In this document: one piece after another, positions 838 through 24,164 of the stretch | Layout of the letters: the number at the start of each line of letters is the position of its first letter | Numbering within the stretch: the stretch's first letter is position 1 | Source: Pseudomonadota bacterium | Lineage (GTDB): Bacteria; Desulfobacterota; Binatia; UBA9968 | NCBI GenBank assembly: GCA_021324155.1 | Contig: JAJPJQ010000037.1 | Location: 1-36,426 of the forward strand | Length of the DNA stretch: 36,426 nucleotides | Direction: 5' to 3' | Program-made: the position numbers and the translations under genes | The notes under the pieces: model-generated | The model's database searches: none | What the model saw: the letters and a program-made list of their open reading frames with translations, nothing else | What the model was told of the DNA's origin: nothing

Positions 838-1632
838 ATGAGCAATCTCAGAGAGCCGCGCCAGGGCGAAAAGATGAGCGCGGCCGAGGCGAAGGCCTAC
901 GTCGATTATCTTTACGCGAAAATGTACGAGCATTGGAAGGTCAAGGTCCAGGCCGGAGAGTTCATGACGCAGCTCCGCGCCGGCAAGCTGCCGCTGCCGG
1001 TGATGCGGCAATTCTTCAAAAACTGGGGGCGCTTCTCGCTCGAAGTCAACGGCCTCAATGCCGTCTCGTACTACATTCATCTGCCTTTCTTCGTGAAGAA
1101 CTTCGATCTGCTCGGCCCGCTGTGCGCGAAGATCGCCGACGAGCTCATCTCGCCGCAGCCTCCCGGCCACGTGCTCGTCCTGTTGAAGACCGCCGAGGCG
1201 CTGAAACTCTCGCGGCAGGAAGTGCTCGAAGATCCGTATCTGCCCGAGGCGCGCGCGATCAACGACTTCACGCATAAGATTTTCATGGACGGCTCGATCG
1301 CCGAGCTTTGGGGCCTGCACGTGTTCGAGGAATCGCTGTCGCACTGGTCGGGCGAGTGGTTCAAGGCCTTGACGACGCACTATGGCTTCAGCAAATCGCA
1401 GGCGGTTTACTTCTCGACGCACGAAGAGGCCGACATGGAGCCGCACCAGCTCGGCAACACAGGCGTCGAGGCGATGGGCCACGGGATGTTCAACCGCACG
1501 ATTCTCGAGCGCGTGCTGCAGGACGGCAAAATCGATTTCCGCGCGGGCTATTCGATGGAATACTGCGCGCTCGCGATGGTGGATTTGCACGCGCAGATGA
1601 AGCGCGCGGCGATGGAAAATCCCTATCCATAA
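838..1632 (+). CDS. Haem-oxygenase-fold (TenA/PqqC/CADD-like) iron-containing enzyme
   Basis: The 264-aa product looks like a haem-oxygenase-fold protein of the TenA/PqqC/CADD superfamily, many of which are non-haem diiron oxygenases or oxidases (HDO proteins). The ATG at 838 is preferred over the ATG at 790 because GGAGG lies at 826-830, and a putative promoter places the transcript start between the two. Candidate metal-binding side chains lie in EESLSHW (Glu164, Glu165, His169) and in THEEADMEPH (His195, Glu196, Asp199, His203). The HxxxDxxxH spacing differs slightly from what I recall for CADD. No pqq, thi or pab genes are adjacent, so the substrate is unknown. The family call is fairly sure, the chemistry is not. 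Confidence 0.75.
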   Translation: MSNLREPRQGEKMSAAEAKAYVDYLYAKMYEHWKVKVQAGEFMTQLRAGKLPLPVMRQFFKNWGRFSLEVNGLNAVSYYIHLPFFVKNFDLLGPLCAKIADELISPQPPGHVLVLLKTAEALKLSRQEVLEDPYLPEARAINDFTHKIFMDGSIAELWGLHVFEESLSHWSGEWFKALTTHYGFSKSQAVYFSTHEEADMEPHQLGNTGVEAMGHGMFNRTILERVLQDGKIDFRAGYSMEYCALAMVDLHAQMKRAAMENPYP

Positions 1633-1639
1633 AAAGGTT

Positions 1640-1726
1640 AGGCGTGAGGGGTAAGGCGATAAGCAAAAGATCGTTTCTTTTTCTCTTGCCGCTTTTCGCC
1701 CTTGTCACGCCTAACACCTCACGCCT
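1640..1726. repeat. Palindromic repeat overlapping a start codon and signal peptide
   Basis: The 19-nt segment at 1640-1658 is the reverse complement of 1708-1726 at 17 of 19 positions, separated by 49 nt. The arms read AGGCGTGAGGGGTAAGGCG and CGCCTAACACCTCACGCCT. The left arm includes the likely GTG start (1644) of the retropepsin gene and the right arm lies in its signal-peptide region. A hairpin here would include the start codon of the mRNA. Confidence 0.6.
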
Positions 1727-2489
1727 CGGGTTTGTTTTCTCGCAAGAATTCTACCGCTGGACCGATGAGTCCGGCGCGGTCCATTTTACCGATAATCTCT
1801 ACTCGATCCCGGAAAAATATCGCGACCAGGTCCAGAAGCGGCTTCAGCCGGTGAACCGCCCGCCGCCGGCGGCATCCAGCGCGCCGGGTGAAAACCGCGC
1901 CGCGGCCGGCGGACCGATCGTCGTGCCGTTCAAGCGCGCGGGCAACCTGATCATCGTCGAGGGCGCCGTGAACGGCTCGCCCACGCCCTTCATCCTCGAC
2001 ACGGGCGCCGAGATCACGATCCTCCCCTCTTCCTTCGCGAGCCGTTTCAGCGTCGGGCCGAAAAGCGGAATCTTCGTCACGGTGAGCGGCATCGGCGGCA
2101 GCGTCGACGTGCCGCTCGTCGAGATCGGCAGCATATCTCTCGGCGACGCCGAGGTGCGCGACCTCGAAGCGACATTGAACGATACGCCGCTGCCGAACAC
2201 CGGCCTTCTCGGCGCAAATTTCCTCTCGGACTACAAAGTCGACATCAAATACGAGACCAATCAAGTTTTTCTCCAGCCGGTGGACCGCTCGTACGGCGGG
2301 CACAGTTACGAATGGTGGCAGAAAAAATTTCGGCTGTATCTCGCTATCAAGCGGCGCTACGAGCAGGCGGGCGGCGGAAAGTCCGGCAATGAGATTCTCG
2401 ACGGCCAGCTGCGCGCGGTGGAGGACAAGATCGCCGAGCTCGAAGGCCGCGCCTCGCAGGCCGGCATTCCGCGCGATTTCCGGCAGTAA
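1644..2489 (+). CDS. DUF4124 plus retropepsin-like aspartic protease, exported
   Basis: The 281-aa product from the GTG at 1644 (AAAAAGG seven nt upstream) starts with a basic and hydrophobic signal-like segment. Next comes a DUF4124 motif, EFYRWTDESGAVHFTDN, common near the N-terminus of periplasmic proteins. The central region is a single-chain retropepsin-like domain: PFILDTGAEITILPSS carries the catalytic D-T-G, and VSGIGGSV and GLLGANFLSDYKVDI match the flap and the closing strand of clan AA proteases. Such domains work as dimers. The C-terminus is charged and helical. A TTG at 1686 is the only other plausible start and would shorten the export signal. The target is unknown. It converges on the 61-aa gene with a 5-nt gap. 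Confidence 0.75.
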   Translation: MRGKAISKRSFLFLLPLFALVTPNTSRLGFVFSQEFYRWTDESGAVHFTDNLYSIPEKYRDQVQKRLQPVNRPPPAASSAPGENRAAAGGPIVVPFKRAGNLIIVEGAVNGSPTPFILDTGAEITILPSSFASRFSVGPKSGIFVTVSGIGGSVDVPLVEIGSISLGDAEVRDLEATLNDTPLPNTGLLGANFLSDYKVDIKYETNQVFLQPVDRSYGGHSYEWWQKKFRLYLAIKRRYEQAGGGKSGNEILDGQLRAVEDKIAELEGRASQAGIPRDFRQ

Positions 2490-2494
2490 ACGCT

Positions 2495-2680
2495 CTACTC
2501 GCGCGCCGTCGTGCGCGCGAGCCGCTCGATAAAAGCGGCGACCTCTTCCAATCGCGCGCGCGCTTCGCCCTCGGCTTTTTTAATTTCGGCGGGCGGCGCT
2601 GCTTTGTGGATGGCGTCCTCGAAATTCGTCACGGCGATACCGAAGAATTTGAGCAGCCGGCGGGTTTCGTCGGAAGGCAT
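2495..2680 (-). CDS. Small helical protein at the end of the FDH-AOR operon
   Basis: The 61-aa product starts at an ATG at 2680 with GAGGTGG just upstream, 16 nt after the aldehyde oxidoreductase stop. A longer in-frame reading would overlap that gene. It is predicted mostly helical: two charged helices (residues 1-28 and 32-58) joined by APPAEIK, with no cysteines, signal or membrane segment. I do not recognise a family. Its position as the last gene of the operon suggests a role with AOR, perhaps as a chaperone or small subunit, but only the location supports that. Confidence 0.6.
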   Translation of the reverse strand: MPSDETRRLLKFFGIAVTNFEDAIHKAAPPAEIKKAEGEARARLEEVAAFIERLARTTARE

Positions 2681-2696
2681 AGCCACCTCGATTAGG

Positions 2697-4508
2697 TCAA
2701 GCGGATGAACGCGTGAAAGCGAGTCCCAGTTCATTGAGCTTCGTCTCCGGAACGAAGCCCTCGTCGTCCCAGCCGCGCGCGCGGTAGTAGCCGCGGATCA
2801 TCACGCCGAGCTCGCCGGCCGTGAGGCCCGCTCCTTGCGCAACTCCGTTAGGCAGCGTTTCCGTCAGCACGCGCTCGGGCAGCCAGTCGTCGTTCGACCG
2901 CCAGCCCTCGCGAACATTGAAAAGTTTTTTTACCGTGTGGATGCGCTCGCCGGCGCGCCGGAGCTCGTCGGCGGTGTAATTCCATCCGGTCACCTTGCCG
3001 AGCAGATCGGCGGCTTCGGCGTAGAAGTCAGTAAAGCACTTGCGCAAAAACTTGCACACGATGAGCGAGTCCATTACGGCGGCGAAATTCTCCGACTCGG
3101 CCACGAGCGCGCCGCGGCCGGGCTCGGCGGCGAAGCGGTCGACGGCGCCGGAGAAATCGGCTTCGTACGCGCCGGACCGATTGTGGCATGCCCCGCGCGG
3201 GCTCACCGCCAGCCCGAGCGCCATGGTCTTCAAGCTGCGCGGCTCGTAGCCGGGCATCTCGAGACCTTTGACGTGCATCGCCCAGTGGGCGCTCGCCTTG
3301 CCGGTCGCTTCCGCCGCACGGCGCGATCCCTCGGCGAGCAGCGCGCCGAGGCCATCGCGCCGCGCGATCGCCGGGATCGCGGCGAGCAGCGCCGCGCCGT
3401 CGCCGAAGCGCAACGAAAGCTTGTCGTCCTTTAACAGACCGCGCTCGGCGCATTCCATCGCCCACGCAAGCGTGCCGCCCGCGCTGATCGTGTCGAGGCC
3501 GAATTCGTCGCAGAGCCGCGCGGCTTCGAGCACCGTATGCGCATCTTGCACACCGCAGAGCGGCCCGAGCGCGAACAGCGTCTCGTACTCGAGCCGCTGC
3601 TCTTCGCCCGCGGCGGATTTGAAAAGGCGTTCGCAGCGAATCGTGCACGAAGCGCAGCCGTGCCGGCGGCTGAAATGATTCTCGGTGAGCGTCTCGCCGG
3701 AGAGATCGTCTTCGGACTCGAATGTGGATTGGCGAAAATTCCGCGTCGGCAGCGTGCCGAGGCGGTTGAACACCGAGAGATTCGCGACCGTGCCGATGCT
3801 ACGATATTTGTCGGTGAGCGGTCCGAGACTTTTCCGGCGCAGCGAATCTGCGATCGCTTCGACGCCCGCAGCATCGGCGACGGAGGTGCCGCGATCGCCG
3901 CGAATCGCGATCGCCTTCAGCTGCTTTGCGCCCATCACGGCGCCGACTCCGCCGCGGCCCGCATGCCGTCCCTCGTTGCTGATGGTGGCGAAGCGGACGC
4001 GGTTCTCCCCCGCAAGCCCGATCGCCGCCACGCGCGCCTCGCGCGCGTTCAATTTATCCCGCACGAAGACCTCGGTCGCCGCGGCGCTCTTTCCACGACA
4101 CGCTTCGGCGTCGCCGAAAACAACCTTGCCTTGATCGATAAAGATGTAGCTGAGCGATTCCGCGCGTCCGGTGACGACCAGCGCGTCGATACCGGCGCGC
4201 TTGAGCTCGAGTGCGAAGTTGCTCGACGAGAGCGAATCCGCGACGAAGCCGGTGAGCGGCGACTTCGTGACGACGGCGAACTTGGCGGTCGTCGTGAGGC
4301 CGGTGCCGACGAGCGGCGCGCTGGCGAAGATGAGGGGATTTTCCGGCGCGAACGGATCGACTCCCGGCGGCGCCCATTCGTACAGCAGGCTCGCGCCGAG
4401 CCCGATACCGCCGAGGAAAGCGCGCAGCCTCGCCGCTTCGATCTCATGCCACGAGCTTTGGCGGCGGCTGAGATCGACGTGCAGCAGGCGGCCGTGAAAA
4501 CCGTGCAT
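2697..4508 (-). CDS. aor: Aldehyde:ferredoxin oxidoreductase (tungsten-type AOR)
   Basis: The 603-aa product has the full AOR length. This cytoplasmic family uses a tungsten bis-pyranopterin and one [4Fe-4S] cluster to interconvert aldehydes and carboxylates with ferredoxin as electron carrier. The cluster ligands are visible as C285-x2-C288-x3-C292, with a distal Cys485 in DSLIVC that also belongs to the pterin-binding motif. The N-terminal domain (about 1-205) shows AOR phrases such as FLGGIGLGASLLYEW, PLTGFVADS and GRHAGRGGVGAVMGAKQLKAI. The gene starts 2 nt after the MobA-MoaD fusion, so a pterin-sulfur carrier is made with it. No ferredoxin partner is encoded nearby. Substrate is unknown; acyl or aromatic aldehydes are likely for the family. 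Confidence 0.93.
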   Translation of the reverse strand: MHGFHGRLLHVDLSRRQSSWHEIEAARLRAFLGGIGLGASLLYEWAPPGVDPFAPENPLIFASAPLVGTGLTTTAKFAVVTKSPLTGFVADSLSSSNFALELKRAGIDALVVTGRAESLSYIFIDQGKVVFGDAEACRGKSAAATEVFVRDKLNAREARVAAIGLAGENRVRFATISNEGRHAGRGGVGAVMGAKQLKAIAIRGDRGTSVADAAGVEAIADSLRRKSLGPLTDKYRSIGTVANLSVFNRLGTLPTRNFRQSTFESEDDLSGETLTENHFSRRHGCASCTIRCERLFKSAAGEEQRLEYETLFALGPLCGVQDAHTVLEAARLCDEFGLDTISAGGTLAWAMECAERGLLKDDKLSLRFGDGAALLAAIPAIARRDGLGALLAEGSRRAAEATGKASAHWAMHVKGLEMPGYEPRSLKTMALGLAVSPRGACHNRSGAYEADFSGAVDRFAAEPGRGALVAESENFAAVMDSLIVCKFLRKCFTDFYAEAADLLGKVTGWNYTADELRRAGERIHTVKKLFNVREGWRSNDDWLPERVLTETLPNGVAQGAGLTAGELGVMIRGYYRARGWDDEGFVPETKLNELGLAFTRSSA

Positions 4509-21081: not shown

Positions 21082-21969
21082 ATGAGCGAAACGATCGGCT
21101 TCATCGGCCTCGGCATCATGGGCAAGCCGATGGCGCGGAATCTCCTGAAAGCCGGCTATCCGCTGCTCGTTCATAACAGGAGCCGCGCTTCGGTCGAGGA
21201 GCTGGCCCAGGAAGGCGCGGCGCCGGCGGCGAGCGCGCTCGAAGTCGCCGCCGCGGCGGACATTCTAATGACCATGCTGCCCGATTCGCCCGATGCCGAG
21301 CAGGTCTACAGCGGAGCGGACGGAGTTTTCGCCGGCGTGAAGACGGGCGCGCTGCTGATCGACATGTCGACGATCTCGCCGATCGTCGCGCGCAAGCTCG
21401 CGGCCGAGGCGGAACGCCGCGGCTGCGATATGCTCGATGCGCCGGTGAGCGGCGGCGAAGCCGGCGCGATCGGCGCGACGCTGTCCATCATGATCGGCGG
21501 CAAGACCTCCGCCGTCGAGCGCGCCATGCCCGTGTTTCAGAAGCTCGGCAAAAACATCGTACACGTCGGCGAAACCGGCGCCGGACAGATCGCCAAGGCG
21601 GCGAATCAGATCGTCGTCGGCGTCACGATCGCCGCCGTGAGCGAAGCGCTCGTACTAGCCGCAAAGGGCGGCGTCGATCCGGCGAAGGTCCGCGAGGTGC
21701 TGCTCGGCGGCTTTGCGCAATCGAAAATCCTCGACGCGCACGGGCTCAAGATGCTGGAGAGAAACTTCAAACCCGGCTTTCGCATCCGGCTGCACGAGAA
21801 GGATTTGAAGATCGCGCTGGCGAGCGGCTCGGAGTACGGGGTGCCGCTGACGACGACCGCGGTCGTCGCGCAGATGATGGCGGCGCTTAAAGCCACCGGC
21901 CGCGGGGATTTGGATCACGCCGCGCTGGTCAACTTGATCGAGGACCTGGCCGGAAAGAAGCTGGCCTGA
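21082..21969 (+). CDS. garR: 2-hydroxy-3-oxopropionate (tartronate semialdehyde) reductase-like
   Basis: The 295-aa product matches GarR across its length. It has the NAD(P) motif GFIGLGIMGKPMARNL, the substrate-binding DAPVSGGEAGA at 119-129, the catalytic Lys172 in GAGQIAKAANQI and the C-terminal NFKPGFRIRLHEKDLKIAL. The family reduces tartronate semialdehyde to D-glycerate or oxidises related beta-hydroxyacids. GGGGAGAC lies upstream of the ATG. No glyoxylate carboligase or glycerate kinase is adjacent, so other beta-hydroxyacids remain possible. The gene ends the plus-strand group; a 188-nt gap with repeated TTC boxes follows. Confidence 0.88.
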   Translation: MSETIGFIGLGIMGKPMARNLLKAGYPLLVHNRSRASVEELAQEGAAPAASALEVAAAADILMTMLPDSPDAEQVYSGADGVFAGVKTGALLIDMSTISPIVARKLAAEAERRGCDMLDAPVSGGEAGAIGATLSIMIGGKTSAVERAMPVFQKLGKNIVHVGETGAGQIAKAANQIVVGVTIAAVSEALVLAAKGGVDPAKVREVLLGGFAQSKILDAHGLKMLERNFKPGFRIRLHEKDLKIALASGSEYGVPLTTTAVVAQMMAALKATGRGDLDHAALVNLIEDLAGKKLA

Positions 21970-22075
21970 AAACTCCTTAGTCCGCTTGCTAATCGGAAGC
22001 CGAGCGATTTCAGCCCCTTCCAGCCCATAATCCTCCCCTTCACCTTTCGTCCGCTCCGGTCGAACAAGTCAATTA

Positions 22076-22113
22076 TTCCCGAATTTTTCGAACTATTTTC
22101 ATACTGCTTTCGA
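22076..22113 (+). promoter_or_regulatory. Four 11-bp-phased TTC boxes resembling CreB cre tags
   Basis: TTC occurs at 22076, 22087, 22098 and 22109, exactly 11 bp apart, as TTCCC, TTCGA, TTCAT and TTCGA with six-nt spacers. The Escherichia coli CreB site is TTCAC-N6-TTCAC, which has the same period. The array lies 45-82 nt before the start of an operon encoding CreB and CreC homologues. A perfect palindrome, GGAAAATTTTCC (22133-22144), and a strong ribosome site, AAAGGAGGG (22146-22154), follow. The rest of 21970-22075 shows nothing clear. Confidence 0.5.
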
Positions 22114-22157
22114 ATCCGGCCTCTACCTTTGCGGAAAATTTTCCCAAAGGAGGGCTC

Positions 22158-24164
22158 ATGTTCAAGGTCTCACGCAGGTTTTTGTTAGTGCTGTTCGTCG
22201 CCGCCGGCTTTGCAGCATTCACGACCCGGGCGGAGGAGCCGCCCGGCGACCGCACGCTGTCGCCCTATTTCCTGATCGAGAGCGCCGATCAATCGGTCGA
22301 CCGCTTTCCGTTAAAGGACACGCAAGTCGAAGTCGATATCAGCGGCGTCATCGCCGAGGTCGTCGTCCGGCAAACGTATTCGAACGACGGCACGCGCCCG
22401 ATCAGCGGCCGCTACATCTTCCCGCTGTCGACGCGGGCCGCAGTTCACGGCATGCAGATGACGATCGGCAACAACGTCATCACCGCGAAGATCAAAGAGC
22501 GCGAGGAAGCGCAAAAAGAGTTTCAGGAGGCCCAGAGCCAGGGCAAAACTGCATCGCTGCTGCAGCAGCAGCGGCCGAACGTCTTCAGCATGAACGTCGC
22601 GAACATCCTGCCGGGGGATAACGTTGAGATCGAGCTGCGCTACACTGAGCTTTTGGTGCCGACGGATAAAACCTACGAATTCGTCTACCCAACCGTCGTC
22701 GGCCCGCGCTATGCGGGCCAGCCGAAAGAGGAAGCGGTGGAAACCGATCGATGGGTGCAGAGCTCGTACCTGCCCGAACGCGCGGACCCACCCACAAAGT
22801 TCAACATTACCACCCGGCTTTCGACCGGCGTGCCGCTGCAAGAAATCGCCGTCGCGTCGCACGACACCGATATCCTTCAAGAGAGCCCGTCGCGAGCGAC
22901 GGTCGCGCTCATCGACCCCGACACCTTCAGCGGCAATCGCGATTACATCCTCAAGTTCCGGCTCGCCGGCGACGAAATCCAGTCGGGCCTGATGGTGTAT
23001 CGCGGCGATGATGAGAACTTTTTCCTTTTGATGGTGCAGCCGCCGCGGAAAGTCCTCCCGGCGCTCATCCCGCCGCGCGAATATATTTTCGTTGTCGATG
23101 TCTCCGGATCCATGAACGGCTTTCCACTGGAAGTCTCCAAAACACTGCTCAAAGACCTAATCGGAAATTTGCGGCCGACAGACAAGTTTAACGTAGTCCT
23201 GTTCGCAGGCGCTTCGCGCGTCATGGCGCCCGCGTCGCTGCCCGCGAGCGCCGGCAATGTCGCGCGCGCGGTCCAATTGATCGACCGCCAGCAAGGCGGC
23301 GGCGCGACCGAGCTACTGGGCGCGCTGCAGCAAGCGAATGCGATTCCCCGCGATCAGGCTTTTTCCCGGACCGTACTCGTCGTGACCGACGGCTTCATCG
23401 CCGCCGAGCGTGCCGCGCTGGAGGAGATTCGCAGCCACCTGCATGACACGAATGTTTTCGCGTTCGGGATCGGCAGCAGCGTCAACCGCTATCTCATTGA
23501 GGGCGTGGCCTTCGCGGGTCAAGGGGAGCCCTTCGTTGTCGGCGATGCCACGGAAGCGCCCGAGGCAGCGCGGAAGTTTCGCGAATACGTTCAATCTCCG
23601 ATGCTGCGGAACATCGCGCTTTCGTACACCGGATTCGATGCGTACGACATCGAGCCGGCCGAGATTCCCGATCTTTTTGCCGACCGTCCGATCGTCGTCT
23701 TCGGAAAGTGGCGCGGCGCCTCGAATGGAGTCGTAACGGTCTCCGGGAATGCGGGCAACGGAGTGTACACGCAAAGATTCAATATGGCCGAAGCGCAATC
23801 CTCCGAGGCGGATCACGCGCTGCGCTATCTGTGGGCGCGGACGCGCATCGCGCGCTTGTCGGATTACGTGTTCGACGGCGATCCGCAGATTAACCGGCCC
23901 GCAGTCACGACGCTCGGGCTCCAGTACAATCTCCTGACGCCTTACACATCGTTCATCGCCGTCCACGAAGTCGTGCGCAATCCTGGCGGCGACAGCGAAG
24001 AGGTGGACCAGCCGCGGCCGCTGCCGCTGTATGTCTCGAATCTCGCCGTGAACAGGGTTCCCGAACCCGGAATGACTCTGCTCGTCGCAATTATCCTGCT
24101 GCTTTTCTCCGCAACGATGGTGCGGCGAAAACGGCTTCTTGACTTCGTGCGGCGTCGGCGATGA
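22158..24164 (+). CDS. VIT-VWA surface protein with PEP-CTERM sorting signal (exosortase target)
   Basis: The 668-aa product starts with a Sec signal (MFKVSRRFLLVLFVAAGFAA). Residues about 35-165 form a VIT domain (ISGRYIFPLSTRAAVHGM, then KIKEREEAQKEFQEA), as in inter-alpha-trypsin inhibitor heavy chains. A von Willebrand A domain follows at about 306-480 with MIDAS residues DVSGS (314-318) and Asp411 in VTDG. The C-terminus is a PEP-CTERM tripartite signal: VPEPG (634-638), a hydrophobic helix and an Arg/Lys-rich end. This signal is cut by exosortases for surface anchoring or secretion. The stop overlaps the start of the exosortase gene. The domain order matches targets of the proteobacterial dedicated sortase system, which end in LPXTG instead. 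Confidence 0.92.
   Translation: MFKVSRRFLLVLFVAAGFAAFTTRAEEPPGDRTLSPYFLIESADQSVDRFPLKDTQVEVDISGVIAEVVVRQTYSNDGTRPISGRYIFPLSTRAAVHGMQMTIGNNVITAKIKEREEAQKEFQEAQSQGKTASLLQQQRPNVFSMNVANILPGDNVEIELRYTELLVPTDKTYEFVYPTVVGPRYAGQPKEEAVETDRWVQSSYLPERADPPTKFNITTRLSTGVPLQEIAVASHDTDILQESPSRATVALIDPDTFSGNRDYILKFRLAGDEIQSGLMVYRGDDENFFLLMVQPPRKVLPALIPPREYIFVVDVSGSMNGFPLEVSKTLLKDLIGNLRPTDKFNVVLFAGASRVMAPASLPASAGNVARAVQLIDRQQGGGATELLGALQQANAIPRDQAFSRTVLVVTDGFIAAERAALEEIRSHLHDTNVFAFGIGSSVNRYLIEGVAFAGQGEPFVVGDATEAPEAARKFREYVQSPMLRNIALSYTGFDAYDIEPAEIPDLFADRPIVVFGKWRGASNGVVTVSGNAGNGVYTQRFNMAEAQSSEADHALRYLWARTRIARLSDYVFDGDPQINRPAVTTLGLQYNLLTPYTSFIAVHEVVRNPGGDSEEVDQPRPLPLYVSNLAVNRVPEPGMTLLVAIILLLFSATMVRRKRLLDFVRRRR

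Follow-up and report, generated by a model that had tools for sequence, protein, structure and literature searches.

What reads four TTC trinucleotides set exactly 11 bp apart in front of an operon that itself encodes a two-component pair? We studied this question in a contig (JAJPJQ010000037.1, assembly GCA_021324155.1) of a Pseudomonadota bacterium that GTDB places in the Binatia (Desulfobacterota; UBA9968); the whole 36,426-bp stretch analysed is called the window below. The first bases of the four boxes lie between 82 and 49 bp ahead of the gene for a VIT-VWA surface protein, which is followed by genes for exosortase K (XrtK) and for homologues of CreB and CreC. An earlier note on this DNA had reported the exact 11-bp phase, and all four TTC starts (Table 1) were confirmed in the window sequence. 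We read the array as a tandem cre-type operator at which phosphorylated CreB (CreB~P) would replace the -35 element, making the operon self-activating, and we give this reading a probability of about 85%. The array is a conserved four-half-site variant of the known CreB operator type in a new setting and not a new kind of system. At the sequence level, the assignment to CreB proposed in that note is supported by the conserved phasing, a TTCA[T/C] consensus, the way the array tracks CreC, and the occurrence of such arrays before creD and before a separate creB.

Conservation of the array and its promoter geometry

The pattern TTC-N8-TTC-N8-TTC-N8-TTC had one match in the window (both strands) and none in 100 dinucleotide shuffles; this match was also the only one to TTC(N8TTC)x3 in the bacterium's own 4.8-Mb genome, where the reversed-pattern control gave zero. 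Shuffling the 400 bp before the gene gave four boxes in 6 of 20,000 cases, and shuffling the last 150 bp gave them in 16 of 20,000.

Relatives of the locus were collected by a profile search of genome contigs with an alignment of five XrtK sequences, which gave 46 loci; a scan of genome contigs with a single XrtK sequence found no relative, and an XrtK scan of plasmids found no match. By record title, the 46 loci belonged mostly to Desulfobacterales, Desulfobulbaceae and unplaced Deltaproteobacteria, with single ones from Nitrospirae, Acidobacteriota, Myxococcota and others. Duplicates were dropped (L061, L062 and L064, the same loci as L082, L074 and L100), as were loci with unusable upstream sequence (L067, L075, L096 and L108) and one without a VIT or XrtK match (L110). 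The examination covered the remaining 43 VIT genes, of which 31, counting that of the window, have CreBC next to them and 12 do not.

In 28 of the 31 CreBC-adjacent loci, the first gene is preceded by four TTC boxes in steps of exactly 11 bp. L069 also had four boxes, beyond the first 400 bp (29 loci in all), L100 had three, and L066 had a 100-N scaffold gap at the gene start, where the array would be; L158, which adjoins another 100-N gap of the same assembly, holds a four-box array followed by a VIT N-terminus. Periods of 7-10 and 12-16 bp gave a fourfold match in none of the 31 loci. With L066 omitted because of its gap, both here and from the -10 count below, 29 of the 30 loci had fourfold arrays, where dinucleotide-shuffled sets averaged 0.007 such loci. 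The comparison of orthologous upstream regions, proposed in the earlier note as the check on its idea, thus shows the 11-bp TTC phasing to be conserved.

Two other arrangements were seen at VIT genes. One genome (L154, G544:C116) carries a second, truncated VIT gene with an array that shares a stretch of 37 identical bases with the one at its complete operon. At L095, where creBC runs opposite to VIT-XrtK, a reverse-facing three-box array lies immediately before the four-box one, which may point to a divergent target.

The arrays were chosen by TTC alone, and the two bases that follow were not selected. Nevertheless, in the 30 arrays other than that of the window TTCAT made up 69 of the 120 boxes and TTCAC 36 (together 105); the A after TTC was conserved at about 0.9 and was followed by T or C. 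L080, which has two separate array matches, was scored in the promoter-proximal register; with its distant, chance-like register (TTCAT, TTCGA, TTCAA, TTCTG) the total would be 100 of 120. Mean pairwise identity between loci was 0.65 at box positions 4-5, 0.36 in the spacers and 0.25 upstream. Five boxes were present in L063, L071 and L084.

The spacing between the array and a -10-like hexamer is fixed. L099, whose best four-box register holds three TTC, was omitted from this count; among 33 arrays, window included, 28 had A at position 2 and T at position 6 (NANNNT) at offset 15 from the last TTC, whereas any other offset from 5 to 34 gave at most 8 of 33. Between the -10 and the chosen start codon lay anything between 34 and 250 nt, which ties the array to the promoter and not to the gene. 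No TTG occurred at the expected -35 position among the triplets displayed (30 of the 33 arrays), and a sigma-70 consensus scan of positions 21900-22250 found no promoter, as expected if the -35 is missing. Boxes that overlap the -35 region at a fixed distance to the -10 are the architecture of PhoB-type promoters, and the 28 of 33 arrays with NANNNT at offset 15 have it.

These features suggest the following mechanism. Upon envelope or peptidoglycan stress CreC would phosphorylate CreB, and CreB~P would bind the four TTCA[T/C] half-sites at 11-bp steps, head to tail, in the manner of PhoB on pho boxes. The gap between the end of box 4 and the hexamer is 10 bp, so bound CreB would take the role of the -35 contact, and RNA polymerase, helped by CreB, would start at about 22136. 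The transcript would yield the VIT-VWA protein, XrtK, CreB and CreC; autoregulation is expected because creB lies inside the operon, and activation would be self-reinforcing.

A probable link to CreBC

The 12 loci without adjacent CreBC offered a comparison, in draft genomes of unstated completeness. Three of these genomes had CreC elsewhere (L080, L094 and L099; E up to 1e-40; the match in L099 was 38% identical and had one internal TAG), and all three loci had an array of three or four boxes, as did one (L085) of the nine whose genomes had no CreC match at E 1e-40. The association between array and CreC had a Fisher p of 6e-8 with L066 counted as having the array and 8e-8 without it, values that ignore shared ancestry. 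CreB matches (E 1e-45) followed the same division: 64, 63 and 52% identity in the genomes of L080, L094 and L099, and at most 46% or no match in the other nine. The eight array-less loci had no four-box array anywhere within the fetched locus. In one of them, L093 (positions 852-3751, a Desulfofustis metagenome-assembled genome), VIT-XrtK is flanked by a kinase and a regulator of the marine-sortase type in the place of CreBC; both were best matched by marine-sortase-type models, at 474 and 301 bits, both below cut-off. This locus had no TTC array, and its sister in the VIT tree is L101 (99/88); it suggests a regulator exchange between two sorting systems.

The CreB proteins themselves also point to CreB as the regulator. 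Most XrtK-linked CreBs have RTVDAHIKN[I/L]R in the recognition-helix region, a few with single changes; the window CreB retains the common form, and the region resembles that of E. coli CreB (RTVDTHIKTLR).

Arrays were also present away from VIT genes. TTCAx4 with at most one mismatch gave 77 matches over 34 genomes, against 7 with the backwards pattern, and 30 of the 34 genomes had one. Thirteen of the 77 came from a single genome (G561), and several of these were plain 11-bp tandem repeats, which were rejected as operators. We inspected the exact matches outside VIT promoters, excluding four in G561, together with the one-mismatch matches L150, the second strand of L153, L157 and L159-L161. 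Exact arrays preceded creD (L153; 506 bits, cut-off 275), a separate creB (L151) and, in L147 and L155, genes for NagZ-like (GH3) beta-N-acetylhexosaminidases with long N-termini (173 and 163 bits, cut-off 207); in L157 three TTCA boxes and one CTCA box preceded a weak creD-like gene (47 bits, under cut-off). The other arrays precede genes for glycine-zipper, MG2, Nudix, ferredoxin, different-regulator and efflux proteins; the one before the large MG2-domain protein (L149, G547:C62) has four boxes and TAGGAT at the standard offset.

From these positions, CreB of the relatives probably also controls creD and the NagZ-like beta-N-acetylhexosaminidase, and the NagZ-like genes suggest that peptidoglycan recycling belongs to the regulon. 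The signal is therefore probably envelope or peptidoglycan stress. In published work, loss of PBP4 activates CreBC in Pseudomonas and Aeromonas (PMC2654508; PMC4689548), creD rises upon PBP4 loss in P. aeruginosa (PMC2654508), and CreBC activation is usually read out through creD (PMC4689548).

A proposed variant of the cre tag, and what speaks against it

The consensus of the E. coli cre tag is TTCAC-N6-TTCAC. Avison et al. defined the tag, and in vitro binding of CreB to it is on record (cited in PMC3962086); Stenotrophomonas maltophilia has a 16-bp tag of the same form (PMC4689548), and Salmonella CreB also binds a promoter lacking a typical tag (PMC7873081). The arrays resemble the cre tag in being direct repeats with an 11-bp period and a TTCA core, and such a pair (TTCACCGTCACTTCAC) stands 77 nt before creD in E. 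coli. They also resemble it in sitting before creBC- or creD-type genes: those of their own operon, creD in L153 and the weak creD-like gene in L157. They differ from it in having four half-sites, or five in three loci, instead of two; in a fifth base that is more often T than C; in their fixed -10 spacing; in the diverged boxes of the window copy; and in serving a surface-protein/exosortase operon that contains creBC itself. The earlier note had predicted a diverged cre half-site (TTCGA/TTCAT) in the window. The 11-bp direct repeat holds, but the exact TTCAC-N6-TTCAC pair has no match anywhere in the window, and we therefore class the array as a diverged variant and not as a cre tag; with up to two mismatches, the pair had 14 matches in the window against 19.3 expected, which is not above chance.

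Several observations weigh against a CreB operator. Besides the missing exact tag, the window array keeps the TTCA core in only one of its four boxes. One draft genome (G528) has both a VIT array (L085) and a second array (L155), yet no match to CreC or CreB (E 1e-40 and 1e-45). Among loci with CreBC in trans, an array of at least three boxes lies within 900 bp before creB in L151 but not in L162 or L163. The own genome has, on contig C41 (L168:2591-6167), a second, weakly creD-like gene beside a kinase and a regulator that shares 44% identity with CreB, and a scan of this locus found no TTC array. Among the 11 non-VIT arrays, the -10 pattern stood at offset 15 in 6 and was missing there in the other 5; one array (L156) has no gene on its strand, and several precede genes without a plain envelope role. 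On the tree, 6 of the 8 array-less loci group together (94/92), which amounts to about three label changes and not eight, and the array label clusters no more strongly than shuffled labels. Arrays of the same type near other regulators, and two published findings on related systems, count on the same side and are taken up with the alternatives below. On another contig of the own genome (C20), two TTCA arrays with two mismatches were considered and rejected, as a scan for at least three of four TTC there gave nothing.

The alternative that survives best is a variant of our reading, and its odds overlap with it: CreB would bind but repress, or the degenerate copy in the window would be non-functional. 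We regard it as unlikely, though deserving the most weight among the alternatives. The first of the two published findings is that CreBC of S. maltophilia reduces creD expression and that its creBC genes are not under autoregulation (PMC4689548). The window array is moreover the most degenerate of the 31 four-box arrays, of which 23 have four TTCA boxes, 5 have three, 2 have two and the window one, and it is probably a weaker site. We nevertheless infer activation: the fixed 10-bp gap from box 4 to the -10 and the lack of TTG among the -35 triplets are an activator-like geometry, and the window retains both the TTC phasing and the -10.

Somewhat less probable is that an OmpR/PhoB-family regulator other than CreB, using TTCA-type 11-bp repeats, binds the array. 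In L146 and L152, TTCA arrays similar to those of the VIT promoters have as neighbours OmpR-family regulators with only 33-35% identity to CreB, as do arrays with one TTGA box in L159-L161. (The arrays of these loci, two of them in L152 (G546:C39), stand before genes for an outer-membrane efflux protein, a ferredoxin-like protein and, by eye, a Rieske-like protein.) The TTCA box type may belong to a wider regulator subfamily. Other OmpR-type regulators, with identities to CreB of up to 44%, are encoded in the own genome, and the array-bearing genome without CreBC matches fits this explanation too. PhoB/PhoP bind 11-nt direct-repeat units in tandem, head to tail (PMC4415409; PMC3348028), at sites that overlap the -35 region (PMC3348028), as the arrays do. 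The Streptomyces PHO box, the second published finding, is built of 11-nt units with a GTTCACC core (PMC4415409), close to the boxes described here. Given this box and the arrays near other regulators, the sequence alone cannot name the regulator. Against another regulator stand the tracking of CreC by the array over the VIT-XrtK loci, its absence from L093, where another two-component pair replaces CreBC, and the arrays that precede creD. The boxes differ from the E. coli pho box, whose core is CTGTCAT (PMC4415409), and the window regulator scored above the cut-off of the CreB model (327 against 273 bits) and below that of the PhoB model (211 against 296).

It is very improbable that phased T-tracts bend the DNA or act as an UP-like element, with the TTC not being read by a protein. 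The window boxes do have T-rich surroundings and a helical period, and T often directly precedes the boxes; curvature was rejected on conservation, as the unselected A after TTC and the T or C after it are conserved, promoters that are GC-rich by eye (L063, L089 and L097) retain the boxes, and the array is missing from 8 of the 9 VIT-XrtK loci in genomes without a CreC match. Chance phasing in the intergenic region, which the frequency of 6 in 20,000 would not make negligible over many possible motifs, is contradicted by the same phasing before orthologous genes in 29 of the 30 scored loci and by the uniqueness of the array in its own genome, and we dismiss it.

The VIT-XrtK-CreBC operon

The operon downstream of the array is as the earlier note described it, with all four products identified by profile matches (Table 1). 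Each successive pair of genes overlaps by 4 bp, which makes a single transcript for VIT-VWA, XrtK, CreB and CreC probable. The 668-aa VIT-VWA protein ends in VPEPGMTLL, a hydrophobic stretch and an arginine-rich tail (RRKR); it is likely the substrate of XrtK, which would likely be its dedicated sorting enzyme.

Table 1 Coordinates of the array, promoter and operon features in the window
Feature	Position	Strand	Basis
Box 1, TTCCC, promoter-distal	22076..22080	+	Sequence; column in relatives mainly TTCA[C/T]
Box 2, TTCGA	22087..22091	+	Sequence; column in relatives mainly TTCA[T/C]
Box 3, TTCAT, the most frequent box among relatives	22098..22102	+	Sequence, box counts
Box 4, TTCGA, promoter-proximal	22109..22113	+	Sequence, alignment of relatives
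-10-like hexamer TACCTT	22124..22129	+	First base 15 nt after first base of last TTC
Ribosome-binding site AAAGGAGGG	22146..22154	+	Sequence
VIT-VWA surface protein, 668 aa	22158..24164	+	PF08487 and VWA; TIGR03788 414 bits (cut-off 552)
Exosortase K (XrtK), 282 aa	24161..25009	+	TIGR04287 110 bits (cut-off 55)
CreB response regulator, 228 aa	25006..25692	+	NF008296 327 bits (cut-off 273)
CreC sensor kinase, 493 aa	25689..27170	+	NF008312 571 bits (cut-off 356)

The proteobacterial 'marine' sortase system has a dedicated sorting enzyme. The operon resembles this system (TIGR03785, TIGR03787 and TIGR03788) in combining a VIT-VWA target with an OmpR-type two-component pair, and differs from it in using an exosortase for sorting and CreBC as the pair; the window matches to all three models were below cut-off. 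A fourfold TTC array was found in none of 29 loci with VIT/VWA matches (L010-L038, some of which had VWA matches only).

If CreB reads the array, the exosortase system gains a likely regulator together with a readable operator, and four TTCA[T/C] boxes separated by N6, followed after a 10-bp gap by a -10, become a genome-searchable pattern for CreB targets beyond the few model species. Tying PEP-CTERM-type surface sorting to CreBC would also provide PBP4 loss as a concrete stimulus for an uncharacterised system. No published description of the VIT-XrtK-CreBC operon or its operator was found in titles and abstract openings, a search that left subscription journals mostly uncovered. A broader proposal, to which we give a little less than even odds, is that VIT-XrtK-CreBC forms a self-contained, laterally spread response to envelope damage. 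In it, CreBC would turn on the surface display of the VIT-VWA protein and its own exosortase through a -35-less four-box promoter, within a creD/NagZ-like peptidoglycan-stress regulon, and the exosortase module would have swapped its two-component regulator on one or more occasions, losing the operator.

The distribution of the exosortase bears on the lateral part of this proposal. Within the class, the own genome was the only one of 148 in which XrtK was found; in the phylum, XrtK was above cut-off in 5 of 395 genomes drawn, own included; the isolated position of the own genome within its class suggests that the operon spread laterally. The four other carriers in the phylum all had the order VIT-XrtK-CreB-CreC, and among them the VPEP C-terminus was displayed in L063 and L064 only.
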